A stretch of DNA of 42,262 nucleotides from a bacterium (GTDB lineage Bacteria; Krumholzibacteriota; Krumholzibacteriia; JACNKJ01), in NCBI GenBank assembly GCA_016873475.1, contig VGXI01000007.1:1-42262 (forward strand), given 5' to 3'. Position 1 is the stretch's first letter. Each line of letters begins with the position of its first letter. Positions 18,574 through 26,662 of this stretch are shown here, piece after piece. Both the position numbers and the translations under genes were made by a program. The notes beneath the pieces are model-generated. The model made no database searches. It was not told the DNA's origin and saw only the letters and a program-made list of their open reading frames with translations.

Positions 18574-20010
18574 CTAGCCGTGTCTTCGCCAGGGATGACG
18601 GTCTACGCGACGCCGCCGCGCGATGCGGCCTACCGCCATCGCGATCCGCACGCGGGCGTAGTTCTGCAACGTGATGAAGGCCTCGGCCGTCGAGGGCACC
18701 TCGGGCTCGGCAATGAGCAGCAGGGGAATCAGCGCCGTCCAGCGCAGGAGCCCCGTGAGGCCGAAGAGCACCTGCTCGGACTGGAGCGCGAGCGGCCCGA
18801 GGGCGAGCGGCTCGGGCAGGAAGATCCCCGAGAGCAGCATCGTCGCCATCATGGCGAGGCCCGCGCAGGCGCCGTAGAGGCCGGCGTAGGCCTGCCGCCG
18901 GTTGGCCGGCGCGATCGCCAGCACGAAGTTCGTCCCCACCAACCCCGCGCCCGCCCACATCACGCCCGAGAAGAAGGCCTCGACGAAGAGGATCCCGTAG
19001 TGGCCCTCGGACACGAAGAGCCAGGCCTGCGGGATGAAGCCGCCCATCACGATCGACAGCGCCATCGCCGTGCGGTTGCCGAGGCGATCGACGAGGCGCC
19101 CCCAGACGCTGAGCGAAAGCAGCGAAGCCACGGTGCTGATCGTGCTGTAGATCTGGATCTCGACCAGGGGCATCGCCAGGTTGTCGATCATGAAGGGCTG
19201 CCAGAAGGGCGCGCCGACGCCGACGGCCAGCATCCACCACACCGCGAAGACGAGCAGGCGGCGGAAGTTCGGGTCGCGGAAGGGCGCGACGAGCAGGGTG
19301 GCCGCGCTGTCCACCTCGTGCGCCTTCGGCCGTTCGGGCTGACGCCATAGCAAGAGCTGCCCGATGCCGCCTACCAGCGCCGCGGCAGCGAAAAGCCAGG
19401 CGAAGGCCGGCAGCAGGTTCTCGGCGCGGGCCCAGCCCGGCCGCGCGATGAGCGGCCAGTCGCCGCTCTTCTGCATGCCGTCGAGCAGGAGGCCGAGCAG
19501 GGTGCCCGCCAGCGTGCCCGCCACGAGCAGCCACTGCGAGCGCCGCGCGAAGAAGCGCCCGCGCACCTCGCGCGGGATGAGGTCGCTGATCCAGGCCACC
19601 CAGATGTTCGCGCTCACGGACTGGGTGACGGCGCTCGCGAGCAGCAGCGCCATGAAGAGCGCGAGCGCCGCCGCGGGCGACCAGACCAGCGCGCCGAGCC
19701 CGAAACCGAACACGAGCAGCCGGCTGGTCGCGGCCCAGGCCACGGTGGCGCCGCGCCGCGAGCGGCGCCGCCGCGTGAGCAGGGAGCCCAGCGGCTGAAA
19801 GAGCAGCGAGAACTGCCCGATCGCCGCGAGGAGCCCGAGCTGCAGCGGCCCCGCGCCGAGCAGGAGCGCGAACTTCGTCGTGAAGACGCTGCCCGGCTGG
19901 GCGATGGTGAAGTGAATCTGGGCGAGGGCGCCCTCGACCGTGGAGATGCGCGTCGCGCGCTGGACGAGCGCGGCGTCCGCGGCGGCCGGCAACGGCTGCT
20001 CGTCGATCAT
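18574..20010 (-). CDS. Major facilitator superfamily transporter
   Basis: The 478-residue integral membrane protein has about 12 hydrophobic segments. In the first half, one reads FALLLGAGPLQLGLLAAIGQ, and GSLLTRRRRSRRG sits at the position of the loop 2-3 motif. WISDLIPREVRGRFFARR is a typical post-helix-4/5 motif of this MFS subgroup. GRLVDRLGNRTAMALSIVMG is the equivalent second-half motif. A longer hydrophilic stretch near the middle separates the halves. The substrate cannot be inferred. The ATG at 20010 is preferred because GGAGGGG lies 7 bases upstream; a GTG two codons earlier is too close to that site. The promoter side is the unusual hairpin-rich region 20011-20607, shared with a divergent sensor-like gene. 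Confidence 0.8.
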   Translation of the reverse strand: MIDEQPLPAAADAALVQRATRISTVEGALAQIHFTIAQPGSVFTTKFALLLGAGPLQLGLLAAIGQFSLLFQPLGSLLTRRRRSRRGATVAWAATSRLLVFGFGLGALVWSPAAALALFMALLLASAVTQSVSANIWVAWISDLIPREVRGRFFARRSQWLLVAGTLAGTLLGLLLDGMQKSGDWPLIARPGWARAENLLPAFAWLFAAAALVGGIGQLLLWRQPERPKAHEVDSAATLLVAPFRDPNFRRLLVFAVWWMLAVGVGAPFWQPFMIDNLAMPLVEIQIYSTISTVASLLSLSVWGRLVDRLGNRTAMALSIVMGGFIPQAWLFVSEGHYGILFVEAFFSGVMWAGAGLVGTNFVLAIAPANRRQAYAGLYGACAGLAMMATMLLSGIFLPEPLALGPLALQSEQVLFGLTGLLRWTALIPLLLIAEPEVPSTAEAFITLQNYARVRIAMAVGRIARRRRVDRHPWRRHG

Positions 20011-20059
20011 GCGCACGCCCCTCCGCTGAAGCCGCGCGAGAAGACCCCGACGCGGGCTG

Positions 20060-20159
20060 CACTGTCAAGACGGCGCTGCAGGTCCGCTGCACCTTCCCCT
20101 CGCTCGCATACTAAGCTCGCTCGAGAAAGGTGCAGCGGGCCCGCGCCGCCCTGGCAGTG
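20060..20159 (+). repeat. Extended hairpin element, copy 1
   Basis: A perfect 12-bp stem, ccgctgcacctt (20084-20095) and aaggtgcagcgg (20127-20138), surrounds a 31-nt loop. An outer arm pairs 20060-20076 with 20143-20159 at 14 of 17 positions. In the loop the octamer ctcgctcg occurs twice as a direct repeat, on either side of the core catactaag. Copy 2 has the same loop plan in the opposite orientation. Confidence 0.7.
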
Positions 20160-20301
20160 CCCCGTGGCTTGCGTAGGCCGCCGGTCGCGCCGCGGCAGAA
20201 CCCCCGCGCCGGGCCCTGCCCACGCGGCTGCAGTTGTAGCGCGCGCCCACGATTGCCGGCCCGCCGCACCCCCGCCGCGGACGCGGCACCAGCGCGGGTC
20301 C

Positions 20302-20419
20302 GTGCAGACCTTGCTGCGGGGTGGACGGCGGCGGCCAGGGCCTTCTGCGAATGAGCTTAGTATGCGAATGAGCGGAAGGCCCTGGCCGCTGCTTTCCCGC
20401 TGGGCGGCAAGTTCTGCAC
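20302..20419 (-). repeat. Extended hairpin element, copy 2 (inverted)
   Basis: A perfect 14-bp stem, gcggccagggcctt (20331-20344) and aaggccctggccgc (20376-20389), again surrounds exactly 31 nt. Outer arms 20302-20314 and 20407-20419 pair at 12 of 13 positions. Read on the minus strand, the loop has the octamer ctcattcg twice around the same catactaag core. It matches the loop of copy 1 at 23 of 31 positions, while the stems are unrelated. Confidence 0.7.
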
Positions 20420-20607
20420 GGCGCTTGCACAGGCTTCCCCGTCCGCGGCGGCGATGCGCGGGCCCGGCGCCGAAGGCAAGCAGTCACAAGCGCTTGCCGG
20501 GGGCGACCTCGGGGCCTGCCGCGCGGGCGGTATCCGGCGGCCAGTCTCGCGCCGCCGGCTGGACGAAAAGCGTCCGCCGCCCCGCCGTCCCAGCTCGGGG
20601 GTTCCCG

Positions 20608-22548
20608 GTGCCGGCTCGCCAGCCTTCGCTCCGCCGCCTGCTCGCCACCGCCGTCCTCCTCTCGCTCGTCGCTCCGGCGGCACGCGCTGCGGAGCTGCCG
20701 CCGGCCGACGCCGATGCCGAGCTGCTCGCGCAGCAGATCGAGGCCGAACTCACCCGCCTGCGCCAGTTCACGGCCGCCTTCGCGAGCGATCCTCTCTTTC
20801 GCCACCACGAGCACTGGTATCGTCCCTGGCAGGACAATGCGATCGTCCAGCTCATGGATCGCACGGTGGCCAGCCTCGACGGCCTGCTGCTCACCCAGCT
20901 CGTCGATCTCGACGGCCAGCTCGTCGCCGTCAACGCGCACGGCGCCGACAAGCTGCCAGTCGATTCGCAGACGCTCTACCTCGACGACTTCCGCCAGCGC
21001 CCTTGGTTCCTCGCCCTCGCGGCCGCCGGCGCCCAGGCGCGGTCGCGAATCGAGGGGCCGGTCGACGACCCGGACGTCGCCCGCGTCTTCGTCAAGGAAG
21101 ATGAGGTCCTGCGCGTGACGGTGCCGGTCTTCGCGGGCCAGCGTCTCGTCGCCGTGCTCAGCCACTGCCTGCGTTTCGCGCCGCTCGCGGCGCGCGTCGC
21201 CGAGGCGGCCCGGGCGCCCGGCGCCGAGCCCGGCAGCGCGGTCGCGCTCTTCGATGGGGCGGGCGACCTGATCGCGGGCGACGAGCCCGCGCTCGGCAGT
21301 CTCGACTGCGACGTCATCGAGTACCCGATCACGGCAGGAGGCGAGCAGCGCTGGACTCTGCGCGCCTATCTGCCGCAGGCCGGCGCCTGGCAGCGGAGCT
21401 GGCGCGACCTGCGCGCGATCTTCCCCACGCGGGCCGAGCTGACCAGCTGGCCGGCGCGCGCCTTCGGGACCTCGGCGCTGGTCGTCCTCACGGTCCTGGC
21501 ATTCGGGTTCCTTCGTCGCCGGCGGGGCGCGCTGCCCTCCCTGACACGCGTGCCCTTCCTGAAACGCCGGCGGCCCTTGCTTCGGCGGGCGCCGCGTCCG
21601 GCGGCCTACAAGCCGGCGCCGCTGCCCAAGCGGCCGCCGATGGCTGCGCCGCGCGCGCCGCTCACCCCGGCCGAGAAGGCCTACGAGCTCCTTGCGGCCA
21701 TCCTCGGCAGCTTGCAGGGCACGCTTCACGCCTTGGCTGACGGCAGCGAGGCCATCGCCGAGCACCGCCGCGATCCGCTCGGCGGTCGCGGCCCCGGCTC
21801 CGCGCTGCAGGCGCTGCGGCGCGCCGCCGGCCTGAGCGAGCTGCTGCGCGGACTGGAGAACCACGCCCGCCACTGCCGCGAGGACGCCGCGCTCGCCCCC
21901 GAGCTCAAGCAGGTCGTCGATGTGTTTGCGCGCCTGGGCCGCGAGATCGAGGCCCTGATGGCGCCCCTCGGCGAGACGGAGGCGCGCCTCGCCCGCCTGC
22001 CGCGCAGCGGCCTGCGCGCGGGCGCCGACGCCCAGACCTACGCCGAGTTGACGGGCGCCCTGCATCGCACCGTGGGTGTGATGACGGCCCTGCAGAGCGG
22101 GCTCGGGCGGCTCTCGCCGCGCGGCCTGCGCGGGGAGTCGCTGCCCGGGGCGGCGCAGCAGGACTGGCAGGAAGCGGCCGCCGAGCTGCAGGACCTGCTG
22201 CTCACGCTGGCGCGCGAGCTGGGCGCTACCTGCAAGCTGCTCGAACTGCTGCCGACACCCGCGGTCAGTTCGGTGATCAGCGTGCGCGACGTGAGCGCAG
22301 CCTCCGGCCAACTCGCGCCGAGCGGCGCCGCGGCGAGCGCGATCGCGCCGCCGGCGCTCGCGCCCGCTGCGCCGCCGCCGGACTTTGCCGCCGGTGGCGC
22401 GCGGCCCATCGGCGACGAGCCGACGCCGCTGCCCGGTCGCCCCGCGGCCGCCGCACCCGCGCCGGCATTCGAGATGATCTCGCAGCGCCCGGCGCCCGCG
22501 CCCAGCGCGCCGCCGCGCTTCGAGATTCTCGGGGGGCGTCGCGCCTAG
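20608..22548 (+). CDS. Membrane sensor-like protein with extracytoplasmic Cache-type domain
   Basis: The 646-residue protein opens with a signal anchor (residues ~5-25). An extracytoplasmic domain runs to about residue 275 and has features of dCache sensors: the long entry helix, YLDDFRQRPWFLALAAAGA and then VLRVTVPVFAGQRLVAVLSHCL. A second membrane helix (around 283-301, SALVVLTVLAFGFL) leads to a basic Pro-rich segment. An all-alpha cytoplasmic region of about 220 residues follows, and then an Ala/Pro-rich tail. I see no kinase, GGDEF, HAMP or methyl-accepting signature, so the output is unknown. The GTG at 20608 is chosen because the signal anchor follows directly. The frame is open further upstream through the hairpin region, but that part does not look coding. 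It ends four bases from the convergent beta-helix gene. Confidence 0.6.
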   Translation: MPARQPSLRRLLATAVLLSLVAPAARAAELPPADADAELLAQQIEAELTRLRQFTAAFASDPLFRHHEHWYRPWQDNAIVQLMDRTVASLDGLLLTQLVDLDGQLVAVNAHGADKLPVDSQTLYLDDFRQRPWFLALAAAGAQARSRIEGPVDDPDVARVFVKEDEVLRVTVPVFAGQRLVAVLSHCLRFAPLAARVAEAARAPGAEPGSAVALFDGAGDLIAGDEPALGSLDCDVIEYPITAGGEQRWTLRAYLPQAGAWQRSWRDLRAIFPTRAELTSWPARAFGTSALVVLTVLAFGFLRRRRGALPSLTRVPFLKRRRPLLRRAPRPAAYKPAPLPKRPPMAAPRAPLTPAEKAYELLAAILGSLQGTLHALADGSEAIAEHRRDPLGGRGPGSALQALRRAAGLSELLRGLENHARHCREDAALAPELKQVVDVFARLGREIEALMAPLGETEARLARLPRSGLRAGADAQTYAELTGALHRTVGVMTALQSGLGRLSPRGLRGESLPGAAQQDWQEAAAELQDLLLTLARELGATCKLLELLPTPAVSSVISVRDVSAASGQLAPSGAAASAIAPPALAPAAPPPDFAAGGARPIGDEPTPLPGRPAAAAPAPAFEMISQRPAPAPSAPPRFEILGGRRA

Positions 22549-22552
22549 ATGC

Positions 22553-25500
22553 TCATTTGAGCAGGAGCATCTTCCGCGTAAGGCGGCGGCCTTCGACCTC
22601 GAGCCGCAGGAAGTAGACGCCCGACGCGAGGGCGCGACCGGCGGCATCCTTCCCAAGCCACCGCGGCTCGTGGTAGCCAGCCGGCAGGCGTTCGCCGGCG
22701 ATCAAGGTGGCGACCCGACGGCCGAGCGCATCGTGGACACAGAGATCGACCGTAGCCGGCCGTGGCAAGCCGAAGCGAATCGTCGTGCTCGGATTGAAGG
22801 GATTCGGGCTGTTCTGCGAGAGGCTCAGCGCCCGCGGCACATCCGCATCGGGCAGGGCCGTAGCTGCGCAGCCCTGCCCGAAGGGACCCATCTGTACTCC
22901 GCACGCGTTGTTCGCGGGGAGGCAGGGGGAGTTCGCGGCAAGCTGGAGGTCGCCCGCTTCGCGATCGCAGAAGTGAGGATCGAGGGAGATGTTACCCTGG
23001 CTGCCCGTCGGATCGGGCAGGCCGAGGAAGTCGCCGCCCTCGTTGCCGAAGACATCGCTACAGCTCATCGCCAGAGCCAGCGTGTCGTTCGGGCTGTAGA
23101 AGCCGCCGCCCCCGGTGCCGAAAGCGAGGATGCAATTCGCCAGCACGGGTGCGGCGCCGGCCTCGAGGTAGATGCCGCCGCCGAGGGCCGTGTGCCCCGC
23201 CGCGATGGCGCCGTTACCCGAGAAACTGCAGTTGAGGAAGCTCGGCGCTGCGCTGCCCGCCAGGTAAACGGCACCGCCGGAGACATCTCCCGGGTCGTCG
23301 AGCATGCAGGCCTCGTTGTCGACGAAACTGCAGTAGATGAAGCTCGGGGCACCACCCTCGCAATAGATGGCGCCGCCGTAGGCATCCCAGGTCCAGCGCT
23401 CGTTGTAAGTGTAGAGAGGGGCTGCCTGATTGCCGATGAACTGGCTGTTGATAAAGATCGGTGAAGCGTCCTGGAGGTAGATCGCACCGCCCATGACGCC
23501 GATGTTGTTCTCGAATCGGCAGCCGAAGAACTGCGGGGCAGCATTGCCGCTGCAGTACACAGCGCCGCCCTGCGTCAGCTCGCCCTCTTGTCGCCCATCG
23601 TTGTTCCGAAAAAGGACATTCACGAGCTGAGGGCTGGATCCCCAGCAAGAGAACGCTGCACTGTCCAGGGCGTACAGGGCGTCGGGCAGGGCGCCACTGT
23701 CTTCGATGATCACATCTTCGAAGCGTGGGGCCCCCAGGCCATAGCAGCTGACTGCTACGTCGCAGTCCGCGATCGTGAGACCTCGGATCGTGAGGTCGTC
23801 ATTCGCCTGCATCAAGAGCCCGATCGAGCCATGTTGCAGGACAGTCACCTGGGGGCCGCTGAGCGATTGCATGCAGATCGCCTTGTTGCCAAGATCGAGT
23901 CCTGGGATTCCGTACTCGTCCGTTGGCAGGTTGTAGGTGCCGGGGAGCACTATGAGTGTGTCGCCGTCGTCGCAGAAGTCCACGGCCTCCTGCAGGTCGG
24001 CAAAGTCGGTGGGAAACTGGAAGCGTGTGGGGTTGCTGGCGAGGTAGTCCTCGGCCGTGTGATCACTGGCCAGCTCGTCGTAGCTCCGGGCGGCGGGTGT
24101 GAAGCGCAGGTGCGCCGCGCCCGGGGTCAGTGTCCCGCTCCAGCCTTCCGGGAGCCAGACGCCGTAGCTGCCGTCTGCCTGGGTCTCTACGAGGACGGCC
24201 AGTCCTTCAAGGAGTACGCCGGGCAGCCCCTGGCTGGCCGCGTCGCGCACCGTACCGGCGATGCGGTGCAGGACGCCGGTGCCGCCCTCGCCCAACGCAC
24301 CGATGAGGACGCCGCAGGTGTTGCCGGTGGGCAGGCAGGGCGAGTCGGCGTGCAGATGCCAATCGCCTGCGCTGAGGTCGCTGAACAGGGGATCCGCGGC
24401 GAGGTTGCCGCCCTGCCCCGTGAGATCGCCGAACTCGCCCGTGTAGTTGCCACCCTGGTTCTGCCAGAGGTTGCTGCAGTTGATCGACAGCAGCGCGTCC
24501 TCGCTTCCCGAGATGCCGCCGTCCCCAGCGTTGAAGGCGACCAGGCAGCGACTGAGCGTGGCGCTGCCGCCGGCCAGCGCGATGACCGCACCCACGCCCG
24601 TGCAGGCATTATCGACGAAGGTGGCGTTCATGAGACTGAGCTGACTGTTCTGGGCGTCGAGACCGCAGGCGAGGACGGCGCTGCGGTTGCCGCCCACGAG
24701 CAATCCGTCGATTGCGACGCTGGACTGGCGCAAGGCGATCCCCGCGCCGCCGCCGTCGTAGGCATAGCCATCCACGATGACGATGTCCTCGAGCAGTGCC
24801 CCGGCTGCGCCCTGCATGTAGATCGCGCCGCCGGCGCCGCCGACACCGCCGGCGCGGCAGTGCACGAAGCGAAGATCGCGCAGGGTCGGCGAGGCACCCG
24901 CGCTGTAGATGCCCCCGCCACTGGCGCTGCTCGGCATGCCGTCGAGAATCGTGAAGCCCTGGATCAATGTGGCCGGTGTCTGGCCCTGATTCACGGTGAA
25001 AGCACGATAGTAGTTGCCGCAATCCAGGGTGGTCACTTCAGAGCCTCCCGAACCGAGCACCACCACGTCGAAGGGGGGCAGGAGCAGGTTGCGGTTCCCC
25101 GTTCCCGCGTAGGTGCCCGGAGCGACGAAGACCGTGTCGCCCGGGGCAGCCACCGCAAGGGCCGCTGCGATCGTAGGGTAATCAAGGGGCACTTCGAGAC
25201 CGGTGTCGTGCGAAGCAACGAAATCCTGGTCGATCTGGTCGACGACAACGCCGGTGTAGACTCGACTCGAGGGAGTGAAGGCGTAGCCAAGGAGGCTTGG
25301 GACGAGGGTGCCGCTCCAGCCGTCCACCACATCGACGGCGTAGCTGCCGCTCGCGTCCGTGAGGACCGGCGGGCCGCCTGCTCCCGTGATCTCGACGCCG
25401 ACGAGCGGCTGCCCATCGCCGTCGATCACGTGCCCGGCAATGACGATGCTTGGATAGGTGCACCCGACCGCGAAGCAGCCCATGAGAGAACCGCAATCGT

Positions 25501-26590
25501 TGTGCTCAGGCAGGCAGGGGGAGGCAATCTCGAGCGAGTAGTCACCTGCATCGAGGTCGCAGAAGCGTGGGTCTAGGCTGATGTTGCCGTCAACGCCGAT
25601 CGGGTCTTCCGGGAAGTTGACGAAATCACCGCCGGGGTGGCCGTACAGGTCGCAGCAGTTCAGAGTTACCGTGGCGCTGTTCGTTCGCTGCAGACCGCTG
25701 CCGGCGTTGAAGGCAACGAGGCTCTCGCCGAGCATGCCGATTGCCTGATAGCCGAAATTGAGCGTGGCCAGGGGTGAAGTGTTGGCGACGATCGTGAGGC
25801 TCTGGAGATCGAGCGTCGAGTTCAGGGCTGAGAAGGCGCCGCCCGTATTGCCGGCCTGGTTTGCGGCTATCAGCGCCTCACTCAGGTGAATCACGGACTG
25901 CGTCGCGTAACAGGCGCCCCCGATGTCGTCGGCGGTGTTGCCTCGCAAAGTGGCTCCGGTGGCAGCGAGTTCCGACCCGCTGGCATAGATCGCCCCGCCA
26001 TCATCGCCGGCGACATTGTCCGTGAGAAGGAACTCACCCGCGACGGTCACCTGCGCTTGGTCGAGGTGGATTGCCCCGCCGTCGCCCGTGCTCGTGCACC
26101 CGCTGATCCGGATGTCGAAGAGCTGGACGTCGGTGGCATGAAGAGCCAGTGCGCCGCCATTGCCGGCCCGGCAAGTGGAGAAGACGAGATCGCGCAGGGT
26201 CGCACGCGAACCGTCGAGGTAGATGCCGCCGCCACGGCCGACACCCGAGATCCTCCCTTGGTAGATCGTGAAGCCTCGGATCTCAGCGGCCGGGCTCTCT
26301 CCACCGGAAAGGTAAAAGGCGCGGTTGAGATTCTGGGGATCAATCGTGGTTCCGCCGGAGCCGGCAATGCTCATGACCAGGATGTCCAGCCCTCGCAGCC
26401 GGATGCCGCTGTTACCGATGCCCCGGTAGGTACCGGGTCCGCAAAGGACGGTATCACCACTGGCGGCATGATCAATCGCGGTCTGGATGTTGAGGAAGTT
26501 CCCGCTGCCGTCCGGGTTTACCCGAATGACAGTTCCGCCCGCCGGGCCAGCGATGATACTGAGGATGATCGCAAGGAACGCTGAGCGCAT
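22553..26590 (-). CDS. Giant secreted protein with three beta-helix blocks and a FlgD-like sorting tail
   Basis: The 1345-residue protein has a signal peptide (residues 1-20) and three right-handed beta-helix blocks (about 23-375, 465-770 and 857-1235). Each starts with a YPTI-type entry and a GDT(V/L)xVxPGTY strand, and ends in a SPCLPxxNxCGxxxG motif. Two carboxypeptidase-regulatory-like beta-sandwich linkers separate the blocks (about 380-460 and 775-850; IAGHVIDGDG and IAGTVRDAAS). The C-terminus (about 1250-1345) has NSPNPFNPSTTI, RVATLIAGERLPAGYH and SGVYFLRL, which is the FlgD-like/type IX sorting style of FCB bacteria. It is probably exported to the cell surface or medium and could bind or cut a polysaccharide, but no catalytic residues are evident. 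The ATG at 26590 follows GGAGGGG and gives the signal peptide at the terminus. Confidence 0.8.
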   Translation of the reverse strand: MRSAFLAIILSIIAGPAGGTVIRVNPDGSGNFLNIQTAIDHAASGDTVLCGPGTYRGIGNSGIRLRGLDILVMSIAGSGGTTIDPQNLNRAFYLSGGESPAAEIRGFTIYQGRISGVGRGGGIYLDGSRATLRDLVFSTCRAGNGGALALHATDVQLFDIRISGCTSTGDGGAIHLDQAQVTVAGEFLLTDNVAGDDGGAIYASGSELAATGATLRGNTADDIGGACYATQSVIHLSEALIAANQAGNTGGAFSALNSTLDLQSLTIVANTSPLATLNFGYQAIGMLGESLVAFNAGSGLQRTNSATVTLNCCDLYGHPGGDFVNFPEDPIGVDGNISLDPRFCDLDAGDYSLEIASPCLPEHNDCGSLMGCFAVGCTYPSIVIAGHVIDGDGQPLVGVEITGAGGPPVLTDASGSYAVDVVDGWSGTLVPSLLGYAFTPSSRVYTGVVVDQIDQDFVASHDTGLEVPLDYPTIAAALAVAAPGDTVFVAPGTYAGTGNRNLLLPPFDVVVLGSGGSEVTTLDCGNYYRAFTVNQGQTPATLIQGFTILDGMPSSASGGGIYSAGASPTLRDLRFVHCRAGGVGGAGGAIYMQGAAGALLEDIVIVDGYAYDGGGAGIALRQSSVAIDGLLVGGNRSAVLACGLDAQNSQLSLMNATFVDNACTGVGAVIALAGGSATLSRCLVAFNAGDGGISGSEDALLSINCSNLWQNQGGNYTGEFGDLTGQGGNLAADPLFSDLSAGDWHLHADSPCLPTGNTCGVLIGALGEGGTGVLHRIAGTVRDAASQGLPGVLLEGLAVLVETQADGSYGVWLPEGWSGTLTPGAAHLRFTPAARSYDELASDHTAEDYLASNPTRFQFPTDFADLQEAVDFCDDGDTLIVLPGTYNLPTDEYGIPGLDLGNKAICMQSLSGPQVTVLQHGSIGLLMQANDDLTIRGLTIADCDVAVSCYGLGAPRFEDVIIEDSGALPDALYALDSAAFSCWGSSPQLVNVLFRNNDGRQEGELTQGGAVYCSGNAAPQFFGCRFENNIGVMGGAIYLQDASPIFINSQFIGNQAAPLYTYNERWTWDAYGGAIYCEGGAPSFIYCSFVDNEACMLDDPGDVSGGAVYLAGSAAPSFLNCSFSGNGAIAAGHTALGGGIYLEAGAAPVLANCILAFGTGGGGFYSPNDTLALAMSCSDVFGNEGGDFLGLPDPTGSQGNISLDPHFCDREAGDLQLAANSPCLPANNACGVQMGPFGQGCAATALPDADVPRALSLSQNSPNPFNPSTTIRFGLPRPATVDLCVHDALGRRVATLIAGERLPAGYHEPRWLGKDAAGRALASGVYFLRLEVEGRRLTRKMLLLK

Positions 26591-26662
26591 GGCCCCTCCC
26601 TTCCCGTGCGAATCAGATGATAGCACAGAAAGACGAGGCCGCGCAGCCGCGAAACTGAACAG

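Follow-up and report, generated by a model that had tools for sequence, protein, structure and literature searches.

An undescribed family of oriented hairpins with free but paired stems and a conserved tip

The two inverted hairpins of the window (the whole stretch of 42,262 nucleotides that was analyzed) are members of an undescribed family, whose stems are free in sequence but paired, whose tip is conserved, and which is oriented behind stop codons. No described family of such hairpins was found in the literature available as open-licence papers.

The window pair and the search for further members

Both hairpins are present where the original prediction had placed them, and their near-identical loops have TCGCATACTAAGCTC and CTCNNTCG in common, on both sides. 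They occupy positions 20078–20144 (minus strand) and 20327–20393 (plus strand), in opposite orientation and about 180 nt apart, and their fuller spans are approximately 20072–20150 and 20323–20397. The strand that carries the GA motifs described below (the GA strand) is the minus strand for element 1 and the plus strand for element 2, and each core hairpin is 67 nt long. In element 1, the 5' arm of the 22-bp stem, GCGGGCCCGCTGCACCTTTCTC, lies at positions 20123–20144, the tip (GA-GC-GA, apex GCTTAGTATGC, GA-GC-GA) at positions 20100–20122, and the 3' arm at positions 20078–20099. In element 2, the 5' arm, GGCGGCGGCCAGGGCCTTCTGC, lies at positions 20327–20348, the tip (GA-AT-GA, the same apex, GA-AT-GA) at positions 20349–20371, and the 3' arm at positions 20372–20393. 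The predicted outer arms were also found: positions 20300–20317 pair imperfectly with positions 20404–20421, and with them element 2 covers 20300–20421 on the plus strand.

DNA folding gave z = −7.0 for copy 2 (GA strand) and z = −3.5 for copy 1. A stem scan of the window at a threshold of 13 found copy 2 alone, with copy 1 under the threshold, and gave no stem in five Markov shuffles. A search of the window against Rfam 15 gave no match, and 11 loci gave only weak matches to miRNA precursors, under the gathering score.

Both hairpins are situated in a 590-bp gene-free stretch between divergent genes. The start of an MFS transporter gene (18574–20016, minus strand; Pfam MFS_1, 7e-18) is about 60 nt downstream of element 1, and a gene for a dCache-domain sensor-like protein (20608–22548, plus strand; Pfam dCache_1, 1.8e-6, under the curated cut-off) begins about 215 nt downstream of element 2, each GA strand running codirectionally with the gene downstream of its hairpin. 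This position, with no preceding stop codon, makes the pair atypical of the family. Elsewhere in the window, the gene of a beta-helix protein with a FlgD/T9SS-like sorting domain (22553–26626) has no GA hairpin; it converges with the dCache gene, and its end is 4 nt away from that gene.

The exact core GCATACTAAGCTC, originally described as invariant, was rejected as a signature of the family: its two matches in the genome are the window pair itself, to which it is private, and elsewhere it gave single chance-like matches. A 15-mer has five matches in viral contigs, where the family tip patterns have none. The further copies expected in the genome and its relatives could not be found by core sequence but were found by structure. 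A covariance model of the window pair (R1), built on the strand opposite to the GA strand, led to further hairpins on two other contigs of the genome and in sister genera. Successive models of seven (R2) and 32 sequences (R3), in which element 1 scores 76.2 and 62.4 bits and element 2 scores 80.0 and 68.1 bits, respectively, recovered the structure elsewhere in the genome and in two other genera.

Among the candidates scored, R3 matched 18 times in this genome (G000), 22 times in G002, and 14 times in G003, counts that include a few elements read again on the opposite strand; this corresponds to some 15–20 elements found per genome in three related genera, among candidates scored. Over 80 genomes of the phylum, R3 gave, besides these three genomes, just two weak matches in G025. 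Over 387 genomes, including many other phyla, the same four genomes alone were matched, G025 by one weak match, in a search that scored few candidates per genome and could miss weak or divergent members. The elements are restricted to three genera, out of four examined, of one family (f1); in the fourth family member, G001, no confident GA hairpin was found. One weak match in G025 (contig C86, 1929–2027), from another family of the phylum, has a larger apex and is possibly a distant relative.

Anatomy, covariation, and the selected strand

Read on the GA strand, the element consists of a stem of 20–22 bp, C-GA-NN-GA, two pairs, the apex, two pairs, GA-NN-GA-G, and the returning stem. The stem is capped first by a tandem GA/GA mismatch and then by two base pairs that covary; a second GA/GA often follows, and the small apex usually has the form (C/T)GNAG. 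The dinucleotides flanked by the tandem GA/GA pair mutually, as GC/GC, AT/AT, or GT/AC. Of the 18 elements whose two-GA motif could be parsed in full, 14 have both positions paired and four have one. In the remaining 30 elements the tip departs from this plan, for example by a longer apical stem that has a single GA/GA. Tip types specific to a genome recur in nearly identical letters. Pairing is found in 88–100% of cases through position 20, in about 70% beyond it, and is near background by about position 36.

The octamers taken for direct repeats in the original prediction result from pairing: the CGA-NN-GA of one side meets that of the other in tandem GA mismatches around a dinucleotide that pairs. 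Only the self-complementarity of GC and AT gives them the look of a direct repeat, and in other members GT stands opposite AC. The proposed plan of stem, 8-nt direct repeat, fixed core, and second repeat is not that of the family, because the core varies by locus and the repeats are the opposite strands of one helix with GA mismatches. The apex of the window pair (GC-TTAGTAT-GC) is private to it. The inverted pair on C19 and that on contig C84 of G003 likewise each have a private apex, common to their two members, and the pair on C2 does not; because some pairs share such an apex, inverted pairs may have been homogenised or born by inverted duplication.

The claim that the stems are unrelated goes somewhat too far, as the loop-adjacent pairs CCTTYC/GRAAGG are similar in the two copies and throughout the family. 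In G000 and in G003, stems vary from locus to locus, and the likeness among G002 stems is mainly an R-rich/Y-rich pattern. Covariation strongly supports the original view that pairing was kept in a repeated element while the stem sequence changed. Each of the 25 pairs of the 32-sequence alignment has double-sided changes, 96% of cells are paired, and the covariation score is 0.876 versus 0.256 in shuffled and at most 0.176 in slid alignments; because this alignment had been fitted to the model, its count of double changes is inflated. A MAFFT alignment of seven sequences with a hand-written structure gave double changes in 21 of 25 pairs, with 98% paired.

Imperfections of the stem indicate which strand folds. 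On the GA strand of 48 clean elements, G.T outnumbers A.C by 85 to 27, a count in which the fit slightly favours G.T; with the axis set by Watson–Crick pairs only, the numbers across all 58 elements are 112 and 53. The excess of G.T points to the GA strand as the paired strand. It also has the more stable fold in 44 of 48 elements with RNA parameters and in 43 of 48 with DNA parameters. Covariance models favour pairing on the strand modelled, a bias partly offset here because R1, built on the opposite strand, still led to members with GA-strand wobbles.

Position and orientation at gene ends

In 36 of the 48 elements, a coding-like frame to which the GA strand is antisense ends within 45 nt (on one side only in 32, on both sides in four). 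A same-strand frame alone was seen once, and neither in 11 elements, some of them because they are near contig ends. The distance from stop codon to element is 2–31 nt overall and 3–8 nt in G002. Where the next gene is codirectional, the GA strand is antisense to that gene too.

Most of the approximately 20 elements of G002 come after genes ending in NPFNP...LLK*, a T9SS-like C-terminal sorting domain; the share of elements behind sorting-domain genes is smaller in G000 and G003. That every sorting-domain gene has an element can be rejected: the G002 genome holds about 140 such open reading frames, and on inspection all 40 of the others sampled were without it, having ordinary terminators or no GA-type hairpin, with the gene end placed with uncertainty in a few.

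Some homologous genes have the element in both genomes, as in G002:C161 and G003:C14 (53% identity) or G002:C16 and G003:C133 (50%), the pairs spanning 45–53%. The stems at these loci are no more alike between G002 and G003 than those of unrelated loci. Likely orthologous genes have thus kept the element while its stem turned over completely, orthology being judged within the hairpin-bearing genes only.

The T fraction of the flanks is 0.53 (3') and 0.46 in G002, where the flank 3' of the hairpin is T-rich; it is 0.12 in G000 and 0.21 in G003, neither of which has a T-tract. In G002 elements such as L049, either arm taken singly forms an inverted repeat, GGGGAGGG-N5-CCCTCCCC, and the flanks are T-rich; the arms alone could therefore serve as ordinary terminators.

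Two further observations concern other hairpins. A second type, with the apex CGCGCGTTGTTTCGCGCG or its complement, is often found at gene ends in mixed orientation to the gene (G000:C122, loci L024 and L032; C1; C13:10591; C56; C70; C149; C261; C299; C25; C19:21660). Two near-identical loci of G000, L030 on C84 and L040 on C57, differ inside one hairpin, where one has a perfect 3' arm and the other about 65 nt of different sequence instead; this is perhaps due to template-switch repair or to an indel between strains.

Explanations and meaning

We tentatively prefer, as a reading that may well be right without being probable, an oriented gene-end hairpin family in which the tip is informative and the stem is a mere handle, that is, a putative DNA hairpin read at its tip. 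Since the GA strand usually runs antisense to both neighbouring genes, the active form is most likely DNA and not part of an mRNA. A hairpin or cruciform would be extruded through transcription-driven supercoiling, and a putative trans-acting protein, drifted between genera, would read the tip. The hairpins would thereby mark or insulate the ends of a chosen set of genes, or bring about termination there; in one genus these would be mostly genes of T9SS-like exported proteins. The window pair would represent two gene-end elements left behind in a divergent intergenic region. Against this reading, the T-rich flanks of G002 lie on both sides, as in an ordinary bidirectional terminator, and the window pair has no preceding stop codon.

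Among known systems, the target hairpin or cruciform of diversity-generating retroelements (DGR) also lies just behind the stop codon, depends on the structure and not the sequence of its stem, and conserves a GRNA loop, but it has a stem of 7–10 bp, a 4-nt loop, the sense strand, and one or few targets (PMC3240598). The GA family shares with it the position, the free stem sequence, and the conserved loop, and differs in its stem of about 20–22 bp, its GA tandem and GNA tip, its antisense strand, and its 15–20 loci. Adenine-diversified near-identical repeats were not seen upstream of the hairpins, where the C-terminal ends differ broadly (protein sequence only). The attC sites of integrons lie behind stop codons, fold on the gene-antisense strand, and vary in stem sequence with conserved structure; they conserve the base (RYYYAAC/GTTRRRY). 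The GA hairpins agree in position, strand, and variable stem, but they conserve the tip and not the base and stand as isolated loci without cassette arrays. By eye, neither base motif was seen at the bases of the elements inspected. An integron origin was rejected: integron integrase (TIGR02249 above cut-off) is absent in the three element-bearing genomes, G000, G002, and G003, and occurs only in G001, as a true integrase at C33:186912–187850 (L164), and in G006, both without a confident GA element. The original view that the pair fits no standard REP, MITE, or attC pattern is strongly supported by this absence and by that of Y1 transposase. It is improbable, though conceivable, that the hairpins constitute a DNA-hairpin system apart from attC, DGR, and REP, in which a putative protein reads the antisense tandem-GA/GNA tip and acts at selected gene ends with the stem free; it might act in recombination, insulate supercoils, or anchor transcription for exported proteins.

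A mobile palindrome of the REP/BIME kind, spreading by insertion near terminators with inverted pairs as dimers, is a possible but rather doubtful alternative. REPs are 20–40 nt long, most with a GTAG or CGTC tag and the GTAG class with RAYT transposases, and as REPs and BIMEs they are dispersed, lineage-specific extragenic palindromes near gene 3' ends with inverted pairs (PMC3733652). The GA hairpins are likewise dispersed, extragenic, and lineage-specific, lie within some 20 nt of the 3' ends of genes, and form pairs in opposite orientation, several of which have their own apex in common; the near-verbatim recurrence of tip types within a genome would also fit. Copying, however, would bring the stem along, yet stems differ by locus within a genome and no stem sequence conserved within a genome, as in REPs, was found, whereas the tip is conserved and likely orthologs retain the element. 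No GTAG or CGTC tag was seen by eye at element ends in the flanks. Mobilisation by a RAYT is ruled against by the absence of Y1_Tnp (PF01797), which had no match in G000, G001, G002, or G003 and was detected in control genomes and in G005. An intrinsic terminator or mRNA-stabilising hairpin in sense RNA, its loop conserved by happenstance, seems unlikely to us. It would account for a GC-rich stem directly behind the stop codon and for the T-rich 3' flank of G002, at a place where other sorting-domain genes have ordinary terminators; but a terminator can do without a conserved tip in which covarying pairs lie between GA motifs, the stem here spans two turns, two genera lack the T-tract, and the strand preference is against the mRNA strand, in which the antisense-strand wobbles turn into A.C mismatches. 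That the element instead works as GA-strand RNA, as the terminator of an antisense transcript or as a protein-binding antisense RNA guarding gene 3' ends, we consider quite improbable. This strand is the selected one, tandem GA motifs are common in RNA, and both GA strands of the window are codirectional with the gene they precede, but most loci with a codirectional next gene offer nothing obvious to transcribe the GA strand, inspection of the flanks revealed no promoter motif, and no Rfam family fits.

Extragenic palindromes described so far mostly conserve sequence. In this family the stem varies freely in sequence, and the elements retain their pairing, their tip, the strand that folds, and their orientation relative to the gene, both between genera and at genes that are likely orthologs. 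This points to selection on a folded form of the gene-antisense strand. If this folded form is DNA, the hairpins would be a natural family for testing what DNA hairpins do at the ends of genes, and the protein that recognizes them would represent a novel reader of DNA structure.
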